Source: Emticicia agri
GTDB lineage: Bacteria; Bacteroidota; Bacteroidia; Cytophagales; Spirosomataceae
DNA length: 55,109 bases
NCBI GenBank assembly: GCA_945860265.1
Contig: CAMAQF010000016.1
Location: 1 to 55,109 of the forward strand
Direction: 5' to 3'
The notes beneath the pieces are model-generated. The model was not told where the DNA came from, did no database searches, and saw nothing but the letters and a program-made list of their open reading frames with translations. Position 1 is the first letter of the stretch; each line of letters starts with the position of its first letter. Positions 22,025 through 50,168 of the stretch are shown piece after piece. A program made the position numbers and the translations under genes.

Positions 22025-22233
22025 CTTATCAAAAAACTATACATTTGTTTCAAAAGATACTAATTAACAACAAATACATGAAAAAGTGGTGTTTTGGTAG
22101 TTAACTCTATTTTGTAAAACCCCTATTAAGCAGTTGAGTATATTTAATCGACAAATTTGTTTTTCATAAAAAACTGATAGACAATATTTTAGGCAAGCAC
22201 AACTTATTTATGTTATTCTAAATTTTTACTATC

Positions 22234-27500: not shown

Positions 27501-27920
27501 TTTTGATTGACGAATCAAGATTTAAAATCCTAAAAGGATTAAACACGAATATATGTAGGCAACGCCTACGGAAACGAAAGATTAAAAAGAAGTTTATCAT
27601 AAAAAAATCCTGAAAGGATTAAACACCAGTATCCGTATGCAACGCCTACGGAAACAAGAAACGAAAATAGTTCATAACCCTGAAGGGGTTAAACAAATAA
27701 CGCAATAGCAAGTTCAACTCCTTCAGAGTTGCTTGTTCCATTGCTATATAACTATTCCATGGGTTTCACCCACGGCTATTCAAGTTTAAGCCTTTCAGGC
27801 TTTTTCAGAAAACAACTAGCGTAAAACACAAATTTACCATTAACCGATTCACTAATAGCCAATTTCACCAGTTTTCCGATAACTATTCAACCATTTCACT
27901 AACCAACAAATAACCAAAGT
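27501..27920. repeat. Mosaic of short palindromic repeats (intergenic)
   Basis: This 420-base gap holds several related palindromes. AATCCTRAAAGGATT lies at 27526-27540 and 27606-27620, each followed by TAAAC-like sequence. AACCCTGAAGGGGTT lies at 27676-27690, where the changes are compensated on both arms. A reverse-orientation relative (AAGCCTTTCAGGCTT) lies at 27788-27802. GTAGGCAACGCCTAC at 27555-27569 recurs with one arm mismatch at 27635-27649. The first two units are direct repeats with an 80-bp period. Nested hairpins (27715-27731, 27757-27775) lie between. This resembles REP/RAYT-type non-autonomous elements; no transposase gene is present. Confidence 0.8.
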
Positions 27921-33059: not shown

Positions 33060-35228
33060 TTATTTTGCTCCAGGAGGGCAATTTTGCTTTAAAAAATTAG
33101 TGAAAAGCGTATTTAGGTGCTTACGAGTACCTTCTCCTTCATAAATTCCGTGACTACGATTTGGGTAAGGCATAAACTGAAACTGACGGTTATGTTTAAT
33201 TAGCTCATTGACAAGCATTTCAGCATTTTGGTAATGCACATTATCGTCGCCCGTTCCGTGAATATACAATAAATTTCCAACCAAATTTTTGGCATGTGTA
33301 ATGGGCGAACCATTCACAAAATCTTCACGATTTTCCTGCGGAAGTCCCATATAACGTTCTTGATAAATATTATCATAACAAAGCTGATTTCCAACTGCCG
33401 CCACCGAAATACCCGTTTGATAAAACTGAGGATATTGGAAAAGTAAATTCAGAGTCGAAGAACCTCCCCCACTCCAGCCATGCACTGCTAGACGAGTCGT
33501 ATCGACGTATTTCCATTTTCTAATTTCCTTCACGGCCATAGCTTGGTCACGGATATTCACGACACCGATTTTGCGGTAAATGGCTTTTCTCCAAGCACGT
33601 CCACGAGGTAGTGGTGTTCCACGGTTATCAACCGAAGCGTAAATATATCCATCTTTTGCCATATCGCCATTATAAAGGTTATTAGAGCCAGTGCCATAAG
33701 TATCTTTTACAGTAGCAGAAGCTGGCTCACCATAAACATTAAATACAATTGGATAACGCTTAGTCGAATCAAAGTTTGCTGGCTTCACCATCCAACCTTC
33801 AATATCAATTCCATCTTCGGTTTTTAGTTTAAAAAATTCTACTCGCTTATTTATTTTCAGATTAGCCAATTTTGTTAAAATACTTTCTTTTTCACTTAAA
33901 GGCGAATGGTCGGCTAAATTAATCCACTCAGTCATTGGCTGAATATTGGCACTTGAAAATGTATGTCGAGCAAACTTTCCGTTGGGCGTAAGTACATAAT
34001 TATGCGTTCCTGCTGGAGCATTTGGCAAAACTGGCTGCATTTCGGCACTGCCATCTAATTTTATTCGGAAAAGATAATTTTGAAGTGCATTCTGTGGCGA
34101 ACCTGTGAAATAAACATAACCGTTTGCCTCATCAATCAACGGGATGTGAACAATATCATAATTGCCTTTGGTTAGCAGAGTTTCTTTGCCATTCAAATCA
34201 ATTTTATAGATATGTCTCCAGCCATCTTTTTCGCTTACCCACAAAAACTCTTTGCCACCTTTGAGCCATTCCCAGCCTTCTTGTTCGTCGGCCCAACGCT
34301 CTTTTGTATCAATCCAAGCCTCATCTGATTCGGTAAAAATTGTTCTCATTTTACCCGTAATCGCTTGACAGACAATGACTTTGCTCTGATTTTGCTTACG
34401 ATTCAATTGTTGAATAATAATATCATTCGTATTCGGCACCCATTCCATGCGTGGCACATAGGTTTGTTGCGGGTCGCCTTCGATGTTCATTTGTAAAGTT
34501 TTTCCAGAAGCTACATTTGCCACTAAAATCTTGTAAGGCGATGGACTTTCACCTACTTTTGGGTACTCAACTGGCACGTTATACGAATAAATAGAGTCCG
34601 TATTATTTATCATCAAGAAATCACGAATCTTGGTTGCATCAATTTGCCAATAAGCAATACTTTTCCCGTCTGGACTCCAACGGAATCCATCACGACAAGC
34701 AAATTCTTCTTCATATACCCAATCGAAAGTGCCGTTTATCATTCGGCGAGTACCATTGGTAGTCAAGGCTTTGATTTTTTTCGTTGCCAAATCTTCCACA
34801 AATAAATTATGCTCGCTCAAATAAGCTACTTTCGAGCCATCGGGCGAAAACTTGGCAAACATCAACGAAGATGCAGGTTTGCCTTGTCCGAGTTTATATA
34901 AAGTATTGGTTTTGAGGTCTAAAACCCAATAATCGCCACGAGTATCGTATCGCCAAACTTGTTTTGTATTGGTATAAATCAGTGCCTTTGAATCATCGTT
35001 GCTGAGAGTATAGCTTCTTACATTCAAAGGTTTTTCGGCACCTTTGGGCGTGAGTTGAGCTTTATTGATTAAAGTAGTTTTTTGTTGAGCAGGCAAAGTA
35101 TAAGCCACCACTTCGCCACCTTCGGTGCGAGTGTAAGCATTGCCATCTTTCGTCCATCTAATTTGTTGAGCTTGGGCGAAGGTTGTTAGAATTAGGAAAG
35201 AGAATAATAAAAGTGGTTTGTTTTTCAT
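33060..35228 (-). CDS. S9 family peptidase, dipeptidyl peptidase IV-type, exported
   Basis: A 722-aa protein with a Sec signal peptide (cleavage after A-Q-A-Q). It has an N-terminal DPP IV beta-propeller, including the E-E motif V-Y-E-E-E-F that binds the substrate amino end, and a C-terminal hydrolase. The serine motif is G-W-S586-G-G-G, where DPP IV usually has G-W-S-Y-G-G; D661/D662 (G-D-D-N) and H693 (S-H-G) complete the triad. It probably removes Xaa-Pro dipeptides in the periplasm. It is divergent from the ADP-ribosyltransferase gene with overlapping promoters. Confidence 0.93.
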   Translation of the reverse strand: MKNKPLLLFSFLILTTFAQAQQIRWTKDGNAYTRTEGGEVVAYTLPAQQKTTLINKAQLTPKGAEKPLNVRSYTLSNDDSKALIYTNTKQVWRYDTRGDYWVLDLKTNTLYKLGQGKPASSLMFAKFSPDGSKVAYLSEHNLFVEDLATKKIKALTTNGTRRMINGTFDWVYEEEFACRDGFRWSPDGKSIAYWQIDATKIRDFLMINNTDSIYSYNVPVEYPKVGESPSPYKILVANVASGKTLQMNIEGDPQQTYVPRMEWVPNTNDIIIQQLNRKQNQSKVIVCQAITGKMRTIFTESDEAWIDTKERWADEQEGWEWLKGGKEFLWVSEKDGWRHIYKIDLNGKETLLTKGNYDIVHIPLIDEANGYVYFTGSPQNALQNYLFRIKLDGSAEMQPVLPNAPAGTHNYVLTPNGKFARHTFSSANIQPMTEWINLADHSPLSEKESILTKLANLKINKRVEFFKLKTEDGIDIEGWMVKPANFDSTKRYPIVFNVYGEPASATVKDTYGTGSNNLYNGDMAKDGYIYASVDNRGTPLPRGRAWRKAIYRKIGVVNIRDQAMAVKEIRKWKYVDTTRLAVHGWSGGGSSTLNLLFQYPQFYQTGISVAAVGNQLCYDNIYQERYMGLPQENREDFVNGSPITHAKNLVGNLLYIHGTGDDNVHYQNAEMLVNELIKHNRQFQFMPYPNRSHGIYEGEGTRKHLNTLFTNFLKQNCPPGAK

Positions 35229-35337: not shown

Positions 35338-35862
35338 ATGACGGTAGAAGAATACGCCACAACTTATTTAGAAAATGAAATCCGAATTATAGAAAATTCT
35401 TATAGAAAGAATGTTTTAACTCAATTAAACGTTTTTGAGAAAGCTATCATCTATAAATATACTGATGATGGCTTTGATGACTTGAATGAATCATTAAGGA
35501 TAAGTAAAGGTGAGAAAATTAATCTTTTTGGCAAGTTACTTGCTGAATGTTTAGATAAATTACCCGATTTTGACGAAATAGCTTACCGAGGTGTAAATTT
35601 AACATCTATAGAATTTCAAAGATATAATGATGCTTTTGAAAACGGTACAATTATTATAGAACCCTTTTTTATATCATCAAGCAGTAGTATCCATGTTGGA
35701 AATTCATATGGAACCGACTTATTCAAAATATTTTCACAAAGAGGAAAATTAGTTGATAAAGTTTCTAAATATCCGAACGAAAAAGAAGTTATTTTTCGTT
35801 TTAACAGCAAGTTTAAAGTTTTCGCAATTGAAAAGAATTACATCAGTCTAATTGAAGTTTAG
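35338..35862 (+). CDS. ADP-ribosyltransferase of the Arg-specific R-S-E type
   Basis: A 174-aa protein. It carries the three motifs of R-S-E ADP-ribosyltransferases: Y-R84-G near the NAD site, the serine run F-F-I-S-S-S-S-S (110-117), and the catalytic E148-K-E150 (E-x-E, the arginine-specific pattern) in Y-P-N-E-K-E-V-I-F. The spacing and the G-K-L-V-D-K-V-S lead-in match VIP2/ADPrib_exo_Tox domains. It has no signal peptide, so it acts in the cytoplasm or is delivered by another route. A second gene follows after one base. This looks like a toxin of a two-gene module, but no target can be named. Confidence 0.85.
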   Translation: MTVEEYATTYLENEIRIIENSYRKNVLTQLNVFEKAIIYKYTDDGFDDLNESLRISKGEKINLFGKLLAECLDKLPDFDEIAYRGVNLTSIEFQRYNDAFENGTIIIEPFFISSSSSIHVGNSYGTDLFKIFSQRGKLVDKVSKYPNEKEVIFRFNSKFKVFAIEKNYISLIEV

Positions 35863-35863
35863 T

Positions 35864-36205
35864 ATGAGATACGCAAAGAAAATGGTTGAAAAAAAAACAC
35901 ACGTCATAACAAGAAATACCATTGACGTACTGACCGATTATCAATTTGATCAGCAAGATAAGGACATGGAAGTAGAACTTATTGAAAACAATATTAAACT
36001 AATCAAGCAGAAATTAAAATCGGGAGCAACCACGCTTAAAAACAGTACTATTTCTCAATTAATGACGATACTTGAAAAACTTATCTTGAAGAAAGATTTT
36101 CTCGAGAATGGTCTTATTCTGCATCAATCAGATGAAGCTGCTGCTTGGCATTTGCATCAAAAAGCTCAATCTGGATTTGAGTTAAAGACAAACATTTCGA
36201 AATAA
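35864..36205 (+). CDS. Helical partner of the ADP-ribosyltransferase, unknown
   Basis: A 113-aa soluble protein, mostly charged helix (N-T-I-D-V-L-T-D-Y-Q, then two Lys/Leu-rich helices about 30-80), with no recognised domain. Its ATG is one base past the ADP-ribosyltransferase stop, so it is co-translated. An in-frame TTG upstream inside the neighbour was rejected. Position and size fit an antitoxin/immunity protein or an accessory or substrate, none proven. Its stop codon lies at the left edge of the 31-bp direct repeat, so its C-terminal boundary may have been shaped by integration. Confidence 0.7.
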   Translation: MRYAKKMVEKKTHVITRNTIDVLTDYQFDQQDKDMEVELIENNIKLIKQKLKSGATTLKNSTISQLMTILEKLILKKDFLENGLILHQSDEAAAWHLHQKAQSGFELKTNISK

Positions 36206-36235
36206 TCAAACCCTATTCTTAGAATCAATAATAAT
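36205..36235. repeat. Left copy of a 31-bp direct repeat (duplicate of the dtd 3' end)
   Basis: Positions 36205-36235 are identical to 40196-40226. Read on the minus strand they spell the last nine codons and stop of dtd (I-I-I-D-S-K-N-R-V). A short inverted pair ATTCT/AGAAT lies inside at 36215-36225. This copy has no dtd gene attached, as expected for an att site left by integration into the 3' end of dtd. Confidence 0.88.
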
Positions 36236-36242
36236 CTGCCAA

Positions 36243-37616
36243 TCAAGCCAACCGGTTTTGTATTTGTGTTTCTAAATCTTCTTTTACTCTCAACAAAGCA
36301 GATTTAGTTTCAGAAAAGTAAACATTTAGGTCTTGTATATGGCTTATTTTTAAATACGCTTCACTATTTTTCAAGGATAGAAGAATTTCCTCTAATTGCT
36401 GTCTTTTTTGTGATAAAATAGATAAATGAGACACTAATTTTTCTTTTTTTGTTAAAACCACAGAATTTGAAGCAAAAATATGCTTCTCTAAATCGCTCAA
36501 AATTCGATTGACTGTTGCTAAATCATTGGCTTCGTAAGCAGTTTTTAGCTCAATAAATGTCTGTTCAGCCAGTTTTTTCTGCTCATCAGGCACTTTATCA
36601 GGGTGACATAATTTAGACGCCTGACGAAATTTATTTTTCAGTTCTTTTTGTTCAGCCTCCGATAGTTCCTTTAATTCTTTAGTTTTCGATTCTTCAAAAC
36701 TCTGCTCATATTCTGCATAATCTTGGCTTGCTTCTGCTATTTTTTCTTCGTCATTTTCAAATTCAGCTATTTGTTTTTTTAGCTTTAAAATGCTGATTAT
36801 CAACTCTCCAAGTTCTAAATTATGCTTGATTTCAAAAACATAAATTTGCTTTTCAATATCTAATTTTTCATCTTCCAAACTTGATAATTGCCATTCTAAA
36901 GAACGAATTTCTAATTGCAAAGCTGGAATTTCAGGGTCTTGCCAAGTCGTAATTTGTCGAAGTTTTTGTAATAAAGCCGTTAATTGAATAACGGACTCTT
37001 GGTATTTTTGCTTGGCAATTAACTCCAAAATAGTTATTATTTCTGACGGTGGGGCATCAAGCAGTAATGTCTTTATTTTTTTAGTTTGATACAAAATATC
37101 ATCTTCATCTTCAAGCCGAATCACATTTAGCAACGTTTCAAGCCTGATTACAAATTTGCCCCAATCTATGCTTGTTTCTTGTGTTCTTCCTCTGATTTTC
37201 TCAAATTCTTGGTTAAAATCTATAATTAAATCTCTGTTGCCTTCTATAATCGTAATACTTTCGTGGTTCGACTGTGCCTTACGAGTCCAATTATAAGAGC
37301 CAAAAACCAAGATTTCATCATCAATGATACAAAACTTGTTGTGCATCAAAGGAGCTTTTTCGGAATCATTGCCAATAAACGTTACACTACCACCAAACTG
37401 ATTCAGTTGCCCATAATTGATACTCGATTCGTGGTTAATAAAATTATTGGCCAACAAAAGTTCTATTTTTACTCCTTTTTTTGCTTTTGATAATAGAATA
37501 TCAAACAATTGGCTATCGGTAAACCACGCCACTGCTATTCGGATTTGATATTGAGCAGATTGAAGAACCTCAATGATTTCGGATTGGATATTTTCAAAGT
37601 ATGCGTGGGTTTTCAT
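36243..37616 (-). CDS. PLD-like nuclease with coiled coil and C-terminal J-domain
   Basis: A 457-aa fusion. Residues 1-145 form a phospholipase D-like domain with one HKD motif, H92-N-K94-F-C-I-I-D99, followed by G-S-Y-N-W; single-HKD proteins of this type usually act as dimeric phosphodiesterases or nucleases. Residues about 160-320 are strongly helical and charged (coiled coil). Residues about 321-380 form a J-domain with H338-P-D340 and the helix preceding Y-E-A-N-D-L, so a Hsp70 partner could be recruited. A helical tail of about 75 residues follows. The gene lies just inside the direct repeat. A J-domain on a PLD nuclease is unusual; a defence or phage-related role is inferred. Confidence 0.85.
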   Translation of the reverse strand: MKTHAYFENIQSEIIEVLQSAQYQIRIAVAWFTDSQLFDILLSKAKKGVKIELLLANNFINHESSINYGQLNQFGGSVTFIGNDSEKAPLMHNKFCIIDDEILVFGSYNWTRKAQSNHESITIIEGNRDLIIDFNQEFEKIRGRTQETSIDWGKFVIRLETLLNVIRLEDEDDILYQTKKIKTLLLDAPPSEIITILELIAKQKYQESVIQLTALLQKLRQITTWQDPEIPALQLEIRSLEWQLSSLEDEKLDIEKQIYVFEIKHNLELGELIISILKLKKQIAEFENDEEKIAEASQDYAEYEQSFEESKTKELKELSEAEQKELKNKFRQASKLCHPDKVPDEQKKLAEQTFIELKTAYEANDLATVNRILSDLEKHIFASNSVVLTKKEKLVSHLSILSQKRQQLEEILLSLKNSEAYLKISHIQDLNVYFSETKSALLRVKEDLETQIQNRLA

Positions 37617-37741
37617 GCAGGAATTTGACGTTTTTATTGATGATGCAATTTAGAAAAAGTTATAGAAAAAAACGCTTTTTTTTGTACTCAATTTGCTACA
37701 AAAGTGCGATATAAGTAGGGGGAAAGTTTCTTACATTTATC

Positions 37742-37773
37742 TTGCATTGCACTTGGCAATTACTTTAACTTTG
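37742..37773 (+). promoter_or_regulatory. Candidate promoter of the 65-aa/DUF2971 genes
   Basis: TTG at 37742-37744, a 21-base spacer and TAACTTTG at 37766-37773 fit the Bacteroidota pattern. The first ATG is about 104 bases downstream, leaving a long leader. Confidence 0.45.
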
Positions 37774-37876
37774 GATAAAAATAATTTTAAAAACCGATTA
37801 AAGCACAACTATTATAGCATTAGACCCCAACATTTTATTCTCAATTTACAATGAATTAAAAGATAAAATTCTTCTT

Positions 37877-38074
37877 ATGGATTGGATAATATTTAACCAA
37901 AGATTATTCAATTACAAGGATAGAGTACAAAGTAAATTTGATAGTGAAAACCCTGAAAACCAGGGGGATTTTAAAATTTATTCCCTAACAGAATTATTTG
38001 AGCTACAAGAAAATGTTAAAAATTCCAAAACTATTCGAGTAGTAAAGGATGGTTTTAGAATCGCCCAAAAGTAA
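37877..38074 (+). CDS. Small protein of unknown function, upstream of DUF2971 gene
   Basis: A 65-aa protein beginning M-D-W-I-I-F-N-Q-R-L-F-N-Y and ending V-V-K-D-G-F-R-I-A-Q-K. It has aromatic residues in the N-terminus and a charged middle, with no signal peptide or known domain. It is in the same direction as the DUF2971 gene, separated from it by about 90 bases containing a hairpin. It could be an antitoxin-sized partner. A chance frame is possible, but the protein-like composition and the promoter argue otherwise. Confidence 0.55.
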   Translation: MDWIIFNQRLFNYKDRVQSKFDSENPENQGDFKIYSLTELFELQENVKNSKTIRVVKDGFRIAQK

Positions 38075-38098
38075 AGTATTTTCAAGTTCTAAATCTTA

Positions 38099-38125
38099 CC
38101 TCTCTCGTATATTGTGCGAGAGAGG
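38099..38125 (+). terminator. Hairpin between the 65-aa gene and the DUF2971 gene
   Basis: CCTCTCTCG (38099-38107) pairs perfectly with CGAGAGAGG (38117-38125) around a 9-nt loop. No T-run follows, so it may be an attenuator that lowers expression of the downstream gene or an RNA-processing site. Confidence 0.45.
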
Positions 38126-38164
38126 ATAATTAACTTTTTGTAATTATCTCTTTCATCAAAAACT

Positions 38165-39040
38165 ATGAATAATAAACAATCTTTTAATGCAATTAGCTAT
38201 TCTAAACATTATACAGGTATCAACCCCATTTTGCATACTTATATGCCAATAAATATACTCAGTTTAAAGAGTTTGATGAATGGTGATTTGTTTTTCAACC
38301 AACCTGCAAATTTTAATGACCCTTATGACTGTTACCCTTTCGATGAAATAAGGCTGAGTAAAACAGATATTCAAAATTATAGAAATAGCTGTGAAGAAAC
38401 CCTAATAAACAGTAATTTATTAGATAAGTTCAATAAAAATCCTTCTAATTATATTAAAAATGAGCTAAATAAAGTTCTAAAAAATATCGGAGTGAAATGT
38501 TTTTCTAAAAATGACAATCAGATGCTTATGTGGAGCCATTATGCTGAAAAACATCAAGGAATATGCCTTACATTTGTTGCATTAAAGGATAAAGAGTTCT
38601 TCAATGGTACAAGTGTAACTTTTAAAGGAGAAAGGATTGAAAAATGCTCAGCAGGATATTTAGAAAACAATATTTATGAAGTTGAATACCCTGAAGAGTT
38701 TGTACCATTCGATTATGCACAAGAAACAAAATTTGGTTTAGACTTAGAGATTAGGAAAATACAATACGCACTTGGAGTTAAATCAGAGAACTGGAAATAC
38801 GAAGAAGAAATCCGTATTGTTAGCTCTTTGCATAAAACTAATGGAAAATTTGAACAAAATATCAAATACAAAAAAGAAGCCCTAACTGCAATAAAATTTG
38901 GTTTAAAATGCAATGAAAATGACATTAATATGGTTAAGAAAATTGTAGAAAATAGTGAATATCATCATATTGAGTTTTTAAAAGCTCAGCTTGTTCATCC
39001 TAAAAATAAAGGCTATGGAATAGAATTTAAGCCTATTTAG
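38165..39040 (+). CDS. DUF2971 family protein
   Basis: A 291-aa soluble protein. The characteristic segment C-F-S-K-N-D-N-Q-M-L-M-W-S-H-Y-A-E-K-H-Q-G-I-C-L-T-F (about 117-142) and the early F-F-N-Q-P-A-N-F-N-D-P-Y-D are typical of DUF2971. That family is often found with mobile elements and defence genes; its biochemical function is not established. The gene is inside the repeat-bounded element. No signal peptide or membrane segment. Confidence 0.85.
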   Translation: MNNKQSFNAISYSKHYTGINPILHTYMPINILSLKSLMNGDLFFNQPANFNDPYDCYPFDEIRLSKTDIQNYRNSCEETLINSNLLDKFNKNPSNYIKNELNKVLKNIGVKCFSKNDNQMLMWSHYAEKHQGICLTFVALKDKEFFNGTSVTFKGERIEKCSAGYLENNIYEVEYPEEFVPFDYAQETKFGLDLEIRKIQYALGVKSENWKYEEEIRIVSSLHKTNGKFEQNIKYKKEALTAIKFGLKCNENDINMVKKIVENSEYHHIEFLKAQLVHPKNKGYGIEFKPI

Positions 39041-39044
39041 GTAT

Positions 39045-40175
39045 TTACTCTTCGTAATACTCTGTTCCTTTTTTGTCGATATAAAAGAATTTGTGATTCT
39101 TTTTAACTTTTACTAAACCTTCTGAAAAGGAACCATGCACAAAGCCAAAGTATTCAGAAATATCATAAATAAATGATATGACTTCATTCCCTTTTTTATC
39201 AATAAATCCCCATTTGTTGTTTTTCCTAACAGCTGCAAAACCTTCTGAGAAACTTTCACAATAGTCATAAATTATCGGAATTACTTCATTCCCTTTTTTA
39301 TCAATAAATCCCCATTTATTGTTTTTCTTAGCAGCTGCAAAACCTTCTGAGAAACTTCCACAATAGTCATAAATTATCGGAATTACTTCATTCCCTCGTT
39401 TATCTATAAACCCATATTTTTCATTTTTGTAAACATTGGCTAAACCTTCCGAAAAATCATACGCATAATCATAAATAAATGGTATGACCATATTTTCTTC
39501 TCGATCAAGAAAACCATATTTACCATTTTTCTTAACTTTTCCTAAGCCATAATAAAACATCCTTCCTGGTAGTGGTGCAATTTCATTTCCTGTTTTATCA
39601 ATTTCTACCCATTTATCATTTATTTTAACTTGGGCTAAACCTCCTGCAACTAAAGTGGCATCATAAATAAATGGAATAACTACAGTTCCTGTTTTATCAA
39701 TACCCCCCCATTTATCATTTATTTTAACTAGGGCCCAACCTTCTTTAAAGTCATGGAAATCATCATAAATAAATGGAATAACTACATTTCCTATTTTGTC
39801 AATAAAACCATATTTACCTTCTTTTCCAACGCCCTTTAATCCTTGAGAAAAACCAATTTCTTGATCAAAGTTCAAAATTGATTGATAAATAAGAGGTATA
39901 ACTTTATTCCCTTCCATATCAATAAAGCCAAACAAACCATACTTTACTTCTACTCTTGCTAAGTTCTCTTTAAAAAGTTCAACCTCACTATACTCACACT
40001 CGATAACAATCTCTTTCTTCCGATTACAAAAGCCCCATTTATCCCCTTTGCGATAAGGTATCAATTCAGGCAAACCAAGTGGATTGTCATCTTCGAGTAA
40101 CTTATCGGTAATCGCTAAAGCCCTACAAAGTTTTTGTAGGCTTTGTGGGGTGGTTTTTATGAGGGCATTTTGCAT
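39045..40175 (-). CDS. WG-repeat protein
   Basis: A 376-aa protein made of about nine tandem WG repeats of 22-34 residues with core K-W-G-F-I-D-K-x-G-N-E-V-I-P-x-I-Y-D. The nucleotide sequence of the C-terminal half repeats at a 102-bp period (34 codons), with copies starting near 39186, 39288 and 39390 nearly identical, so they duplicated recently. WG repeats are thought to form extended or propeller-like binding surfaces. No signal peptide was seen, unlike many exported WG proteins. It is the last gene before the right repeat and converges with the DUF2971 gene with only 4 bases between stops. Confidence 0.85.
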   Translation of the reverse strand: MQNALIKTTPQSLQKLCRALAITDKLLEDDNPLGLPELIPYRKGDKWGFCNRKKEIVIECEYSEVELFKENLARVEVKYGLFGFIDMEGNKVIPLIYQSILNFDQEIGFSQGLKGVGKEGKYGFIDKIGNVVIPFIYDDFHDFKEGWALVKINDKWGGIDKTGTVVIPFIYDATLVAGGLAQVKINDKWVEIDKTGNEIAPLPGRMFYYGLGKVKKNGKYGFLDREENMVIPFIYDYAYDFSEGLANVYKNEKYGFIDKRGNEVIPIIYDYCGSFSEGFAAAKKNNKWGFIDKKGNEVIPIIYDYCESFSEGFAAVRKNNKWGFIDKKGNEVISFIYDISEYFGFVHGSFSEGLVKVKKNHKFFYIDKKGTEYYEE

Positions 40176-40195
40176 AGTTTTAATGTTTTGTGGCT

Positions 40196-40226
40196 ATCAA
40201 ACCCTATTCTTAGAATCAATAATAAT
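40196..40226. repeat. Right copy of the 31-bp direct repeat, at the dtd 3' end
   Basis: Identical to 36205-36235. This copy is functional coding sequence: it encodes the last nine residues and stop of D-aminoacyl-tRNA deacylase. It marks the right border of a 3.99-kb integrated segment. Confidence 0.88.
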
Positions 40227-40649
40227 AGTTACGGGGCCATCATTGAGCAGCGAAACTTTCATATCTGCACCAAAAGTGCCAGTTTCGATGGGTTTTCCTA
40301 AATCAAACTCTATTTGAGTAATCATTTTTTCGTAAAGTGGAATGGCTATTTCGGGGCGAGCAGCTTCAATAAACGAAGGTCTATTTCCTTTTTTTGTACT
40401 TGCGTGAAGCGTGAATTGGCTAATCAAAAGAATATTTCCATCAACTGATTTTAGGTCGAGATTCATTCGTCCTTCTTCATCGCCAAAAACTCGTAAGCCT
40501 ACGATTTTCTTAGAAAGCCATTCAATATCTTCTTGGGTATCGGTATGGGTAATGCCTAATAACACCATAAATCCTAAGTCAATTTGACCTTTTATTTCAT
40601 CCTCAATCGTTACTGAGGCTTGAGAAACTCTTTGTATAATTGCAATCAT
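40197..40649 (-). CDS. dtd: D-aminoacyl-tRNA deacylase
   Basis: A 150-aa enzyme that hydrolyses D-amino acids wrongly attached to tRNA. The family signatures S-Q-F-T-L (in I-S-Q-F-T-L-H-A) and the Gly-cisPro loop G-N-R-P-S-F are intact. The start is the ATG giving M-I-A-I-I-Q-R-V; a longer frame begins in an intergenic repeat. The C-terminus ends S-K-N-R-V and is duplicated at 36205-36235, showing that the gene served as an integration target without being damaged. Confidence 0.95.
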   Translation of the reverse strand: MIAIIQRVSQASVTIEDEIKGQIDLGFMVLLGITHTDTQEDIEWLSKKIVGLRVFGDEEGRMNLDLKSVDGNILLISQFTLHASTKKGNRPSFIEAARPEIAIPLYEKMITQIEFDLGKPIETGTFGADMKVSLLNDGPVTIIIDSKNRV

Positions 40650-49818: not shown

Positions 49819-50168
49819 ATAAAAAATATTTTTTTGACGAATTTATTTGCTTTTCACTAACAAACTCAGCTACCTTTTACATTTTCAAATATACTGACGA
49901 AAGTTATTGCGAAAGTAACAATATAAGTATTCCACGGTCAATAGTCGACAGTTCACACTAACATAAAACACTATCTATCAATTTTTTATGAAAAACAAAT
50001 TTATCGATTAAATATTTCAACTGCTAATATATTTTTTCGCTGAAAAATAATTACTTTTATCACAAATAAAAATATTTAAAATTTTGATAGTATGAATTTT
50101 GCATTGTTTTTTTCACATAAAATCATAAAAAATTCCATTGAAATAAGTGAAAAAGAATTTAGCTATTG
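49819..50168. other. Intergenic stretch without a gene
   Basis: About 350 AT-rich bases with no convincing open frame. A short stretch near 49947-49960 (AGTCGACAGTTCAC) also occurs at 19322-19335, so this is another dispersed repeat fragment. Confidence 0.4.

Follow-up and report, generated by a model that had tools for sequence, protein, structure and literature searches.

A 4-kb segment between two copies of the dtd 3′ end in Emticicia, probably a decayed or trans-mobilised site-specific insertion

How did a 4-kb segment of the Emticicia agri genome come to lie between two identical copies of the 3′ end of dtd, next to a dtd gene that is itself whole? The window analysed here, a contiguous stretch of 55,109 nt, carries a 31-base direct repeat whose two copies show zero differences at a spacing of 3991 bp (Table 1). 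As the original prediction held, the right copy is the real end of an intact dtd gene, and the left copy has the dtd end sequence without the remainder of the gene. The ATTCT/AGAAT inverted pair described in the core is also present, with its arms one base apart. No third site was found in the 4.43-Mb assembly from which the window comes (174 contigs, 90% complete) when up to 3 mismatches were allowed, and a reversed-sequence control of the 31-mer gave zero sites. With a direct repeat on both sides of the segment, its ends are att-like in sequence.

Table 1. Positions of the repeat copies, the genes between them and the flanking genes in the window
Feature	Position	Strand	Remarks
S9-type peptidase, conserved left neighbour	33060..35228	-	DNA similarity to G009 and G004 ends at its start codon
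ADP-ribosyltransferase-fold protein, left flank outside the repeat	35338..35862	+	PF03496
113-aa partner ORF, left flank	35864..36205	+	stop codon reaches one base into the left repeat
Left copy of the 31-bp direct repeat	36205..36235	+	duplicate of the dtd 3′ end, attL-like
PLD (single HKD) + J-domain protein, 457 aa	36243..37616	-	PLDc_2 3.5e-24, DnaJ 1.4e-07 (Pfam)
65-aa ORF	37877..38074	+	homologue in G007, 69% identity
DUF2971 protein	38165..39040	+	DUF2971 1.9e-09; PADLOC candidate defence family PDC-S31, 8.7e-40
WG-repeat protein	39045..40175	-	WG repeats 9.1e-90
Right copy of the 31-bp direct repeat	40196..40226	+	final nine codons of dtd with the stop, and one further base
dtd, D-Tyr-tRNA deacylase family, intact target	40197..40646	-	PF02580, 2.1e-57

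Four ORFs lie between the repeat copies. Their predicted identities as a PLD/J-domain fusion, a 65-aa protein, a DUF2971 protein and a WG-repeat protein were borne out by Pfam, except that the 65-aa ORF had no Pfam match. Non-coding DNA at the ends of the segment is limited to 7 bp separating the PLD/J stop codon from the left repeat, and 20 bp separating the WG start codon from the right repeat, which leaves scant space for arm-type sites. The WG gene lies directly downstream of dtd and on the same strand. Scans of the four ORFs with Pfam, PADLOC and NCBIfam gave no match to a recombinase family, in agreement with the original prediction, and, as in a CIME, these scans found no integration or transfer genes inside the segment. 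A direct repeat of the 3′ end of a target gene, with the gene left intact, is a feature of integrative elements that use a tyrosine recombinase, and it is present here; an integrase gene next to the att site, which is another such feature, was not found.

To place the repeat in context, 123 dtd loci were compared, taken from G209 and from 122 of the 137 genomes in which dtd was matched (15 were left out); at least 5 kb of downstream sequence was in reach for 115 of the 123. When the terminal 30 nt of dtd were sought again downstream of the gene on the same strand, the best match scored 29–30/30 in three loci and 15–22/30 in the other 120. Taken with the uniqueness of the pair in its own assembly, this led to the rejection of a chance repeat. 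A 22/30 match located 709 bp after dtd in G021 was considered as a second dtd end and treated as noise. Exact direct repeats of at least 24 bp at distances of 500–20,000 bp number 67 in the 123 locus sequences (2.19 Mb), many of them concentrated in a few repeat-rich loci, and one locus (L159) has a 32-bp exact pair 4089 bp apart; what distinguishes the three carriers among these long repeats is the match to the dtd end. The suggestion that dtd is an integration hotspot was not upheld, as the duplicate occurs in 3 of 123 loci, all within one genus.

The segment was then sought in relatives, in comparisons that covered 222 genomes of the family and 11 of the genus. The core (≤3 mismatches) was present in 12 of the 222 family genomes, at two places in G000, G007 and G009 and at one in each of the other nine, where it is the dtd end in eight cases and the left copy in G005. 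Named genomes with a core pattern match include E. aquatilis, E. aquatica and two Cytophagaceae MAGs. Every match in the family was either a dtd end or the left copy of this segment. In the E. aquatica isolate G007, the PLD/J, 65-aa, DUF2971 and WG genes all lie between the S9 peptidase gene and dtd, bounded by an exact 33-bp repeat with a spacing of 4100 bp; this recurrence of the arrangement disfavours an assembly artefact. In the MAG G009, the PLD/J and WG genes occupy the same interval, the DUF2971 gene is reduced to pieces, and the repeat is 30 bp with one mismatch, its copies 3038 bp apart. In G005, the PLD/J gene and only the left of the two junctions are present, near a contig end, and dtd was not found in its 81%-complete assembly.

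Empty sites with a single copy of the core, as had been predicted, were found in three relatives. In G004 and G006, short genes separate dtd from the neighbouring S9 peptidase gene, the core occurs once and the segment is missing; G010 likewise has a single core without the segment, and other genes follow dtd there. Because the left flanks in G004 and G006 lack orthology to the carriers' flanks, these empty sites are not pristine. G001, G002, G003 and G008 also lack a PLD/J gene, and no second dtd-end copy was found downstream of their dtd (2.6 kb is visible in G008); the gene after dtd in these four genomes is, judging by eye, presumably an aldehyde dehydrogenase gene, and in G001 a single 208-aa ORF lies between the two. 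On these comparisons the 4-kb segment looks like a genuine inserted island. About 112 bp after the dtd stop codon in G010 (L034, 3438–3461), a run of 24 bases is 83% like an internal stretch near the dtd 3′ end; it may be a chance resemblance or an old dtd remnant.

Site-specific integrative elements leave their target gene whole, with the site duplicated at the distal end of the inserted DNA. The polymorphism between occupied and single-copy loci, with its edges at the repeat, makes an integrative element decayed to its ends, in the manner of a CIME, the best reading of the locus. We assign a probability of about 0.6 to site-specific integration at the dtd 3′ end that gave rise to what is now a decayed or trans-mobilised, CIME-like element. 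In such a process, a DNA segment would insert at a defined site of ~30 bp at the end of dtd, keeping the gene whole and duplicating the site at the segment's other end. The first insertion would have been carried out by a tyrosine recombinase that was subsequently lost or that acted in trans, and the present segment would consist of cargo only between att-like ends, having either decayed or come to depend on mobilisation in trans.

Tyrosine-recombinase integration had been proposed for this locus from the outset. The part of that proposal which concerns the DNA, namely cargo between dtd-end duplicates and relatives with occupied and single-copy loci, stands; the enzyme was found neither inside the segment nor beside the dtd 3′ ends. 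The search used a tyrosine-recombinase profile made from 24 genus seeds, the longest fitting ORFs at PF00589 places, which passed a leave-one-out control (24/24). Among 1874 ORFs in the 123 dtd loci there were two matches, in L175 and L152. The match in L175 lies 15 kb downstream of dtd, and no tyrosine recombinase was detected by the profile beside the dtd 3′ end at any of the 123 loci. The other match, in L152 (G062), is an ORF resembling tyrosine recombinases; it is encoded on the opposite strand and lies ~70 bp away from dtd, at the 5′ end of the gene. PF00589 matches occur in 11/11 genus genomes. As for a helper integrase, none of the PF00589 matches listed comes closer than 100 kb to the segment in either G007 or G009, and the 55-kb contig of the window holds none of them. 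No helper element was found next to another core copy in the genome of the window, where the core sites number two (assembly 90% complete), and no relative with both core and recombinase was found in the 222 family genomes or in IMG/VR.

A phage or plasmid source was also considered and rejected, since searches of phage and plasmid sequences for the core gave nothing stronger than weak matches. Exact core patterns gave 0 matches in IMG/VR. A query of 56 bases around the left copy matched 23 phage records (best E 0.4; the matches listed, 10 of the 23, fall in lysin genes) and 6 plasmid records, all weak, at E 4. No relative of the PLD/J protein was found in IMG/VR, where 12 stretches matched its peptide pattern and none was confirmed; partial matches to the protein occur in 32 plasmid and 3 phage records, none covering >80% of its length among the matches listed (12 of the 32 for plasmids). 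With the whole segment as query, 6 records of the plasmid collection were matched, five of them at the WG gene. The sixth, a 2.1-Mb Fusobacterium record, matches bases 40206–40274, which overlap the right copy and dtd; the stretch carries no annotation and is probably that organism's own dtd.

With respect to known systems, the segment resembles CIMEs in that direct copies of a gene 3′ end enclose cargo lacking recombinase and transfer genes, and in the occurrence of occupied and single-copy loci among relatives. It differs in that the search for an integrative, recombinase-bearing relative at the dtd site found none, in the att role of the repeat, which is putative here, and in its target, as no report of dtd as an integration target was found among the literature matches listed. 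SGI1 encodes an integrase, and in this respect it differs from the dtd segment. It is also longer, at 42.4 kb (PMC3285670), compared with 3–4 kb for the dtd segment. Genomic islands at gene 3′ ends include SGI1 at trmE and islands at dusA (PMC8409611). In these, as here, the target is a tRNA-acting gene, used at its 3′ end and kept whole. The dif modules of Acinetobacter plasmids likewise consist of small, recombinase-free cargo between short direct sites; the dtd segment differs from them in having a core that is not dif-like, in its one chromosomal site and in that no shuffling of modules was seen. The segment is probably a known type of element at a target absent from the literature matches listed.

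The junctions and the divergence of the genes around them bear on how the segment has moved. The limits of the repeat fall in the same columns within one or two bases in the three carriers, giving lengths of 30–33 bp. On the left, the repeat abuts the ADP-ribosyltransferase-fold gene and 113-aa ORF in the window, and a small ORF and PIN gene in G009, G007 and G005; the latter two genes look like a toxin-antitoxin pair, and the PIN protein of G009 matches TIGR00305. From the repeat into the segment, the sequences of the window and G009 are alike. The core is the junction of one segment with two unrelated left flanks, which implies either two insertions or a later swap of flanks at the core. Within the repeat, the left copy in G009 has the empty-site base (TCAAATCC) and the right copy reads TCAAACCC; in the window both copies have the C. 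The G009 pattern is as expected if the element had supplied a new dtd tail, and would fit a single later mutation equally well. An excess of conservation in the left copy over its flank was not clear-cut. The two-gene unit on the left in the window may, like the PIN genes, be of the toxin-antitoxin kind. It recurs at an unrelated place in another genus (G060, L232, 880–1794), where the first gene was identified by eye.

At four-fold sites, G007 and G005 differ at 14/118 positions in the PLD/J gene, compared with 126/243 in the peptidase gene and 101/166 in the oxidoreductase gene, indicating that the cargo moved between these two lineages. The low-divergence tract crosses the left repeat and runs through the PIN antitoxin gene into the PIN toxin gene. 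Its extension past the left repeat points to a recent exchange between species by homologous recombination that carried the left flank along, whatever caused the first insertion. Between the window and G009, the corresponding values are 24/125 for PLD/J, 36/284 for the peptidase, 47/198 for the oxidoreductase and 32/183 for mgtE; the WG gene, at 29/64, is more diverged than its neighbours. With PLD/J about as diverged as the neighbouring genes and WG more so, there is no sign of recent movement for that pair.

Homologous or short-homology recombination might also account for the locus by itself, if foreign DNA carrying the dtd end of another cell had been joined between dtd and the S9 peptidase gene; the 31-bp repeat would then be the overlap used in joining, and a site-specific recombinase would never have been involved. 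The reach of the exchanged tract beyond the left repeat is in keeping with such an event, as are the lack of a recombinase near the segments of the carriers and the variability of the dtd–peptidase interval in its own right: besides the PIN and ADP-ribosyltransferase pairs of the carriers, this interval holds a different PIN pair in G004 and another gene in G006. Recombination by itself, however, does not account for the presence of a dtd-end copy on the distal side of the cargo, or for the length of 30–33 bp and the near-identical limits of that copy in three carriers. We consider it rather unlikely as a full account.

It is improbable, in our estimate, that defence cassettes lacking a recombinase naturally dock at the dtd end in Emticicia, where the ~30-bp core would be exchanged by a recombinase acting in trans, with cargo 7–20 bp from the core and reuse of the site beside different left neighbours. 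Still less probable is a module resembling a cassette that a host recombinase moves in trans, as XerC/XerD do with dif modules. A core of ~30 bp, cargo free of recombinases and genes 7 and 20 bp from the cores would suit such a module, and some PF00589 genes of the genus have frames of about 300 aa, which is the size of XerC and XerD. The consensus dyad of dif is ATAA-N6-TTAT, however, and the core lacks it and does not conform to a 28-bp XerC/XerD site; each genome moreover has a single site, and neither the genome of the window nor the 222 family genomes yielded a further module with the core (≤3 mismatches). A transposon-like insertion through a staggered break would produce an insertion flanked by a duplication, but 31 bp is unusually long for a transposon target duplication, the target is a gene end, no transposase was found in the four ORFs (Pfam) and no inverted pair of at least 16 bp, the floor of the search, was found at the two ends, so that this origin is extremely improbable.

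Site-specific integration at the dtd end remains the preferred reading, and the locus offers a compact system of occupied and single-copy sites at the end of a protein gene. As the carrier E. aquatica and the non-carrier E. aquatilis are both cultured, excision and the need for a recombinase are testable in this pair. The locus is also of interest for its possible defence cargo (the PLD/J and WG-repeat proteins and PDC-S31), exchanged between species at one place. The PDC-S31 match, together with a weak match of the PLD domain to DrmC in the PADLOC scan, suggests that the cargo may consist of defence genes.

Homologues of the PLD/J protein were examined for conserved features and for their neighbours. 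Any match was found in 44 of the 222 family genomes, and the long matches gave 11 aligned sequences (including that of the window, and one that is partial), all of which keep the HKD and HPD motifs. Outside the genus, 5 of the 7 long homologues examined have a repeat protein or a short protein nearby: in G245 and G255 the neighbour is a WG protein with a similar N-terminal stretch, in G064 a short protein that shares this stretch, in G275 a WG protein, and in G021 a TPR protein, whose resemblance is judged by eye. The homologue in G270 is near a contig end. The pairing of PLD/J with a repeat protein is therefore a recurring association, and would suggest a putative nuclease-like effector with a sensing or scaffold partner. 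In G239 (L100), the PLD/J homologue comes after a gene with an Eco57I-type methylase match, and the ORFs that follow it presumably encode vWA, phosphatase and kinase proteins, as they appear by eye.

Two further repeats were noted elsewhere in the window. Positions 22140–22191 and 49964–50015 form a 52-nt inverted pair, 90% complementary and 27.8 kb apart, whose 33-base core (≤3 mismatches) has no further site in the window and did not appear in any of 100 shuffles; the pair is possibly a shared upstream element. Positions 27524–27667 hold two 64-nt copies of a sequence, 83% alike and 80 bp apart from start to start.
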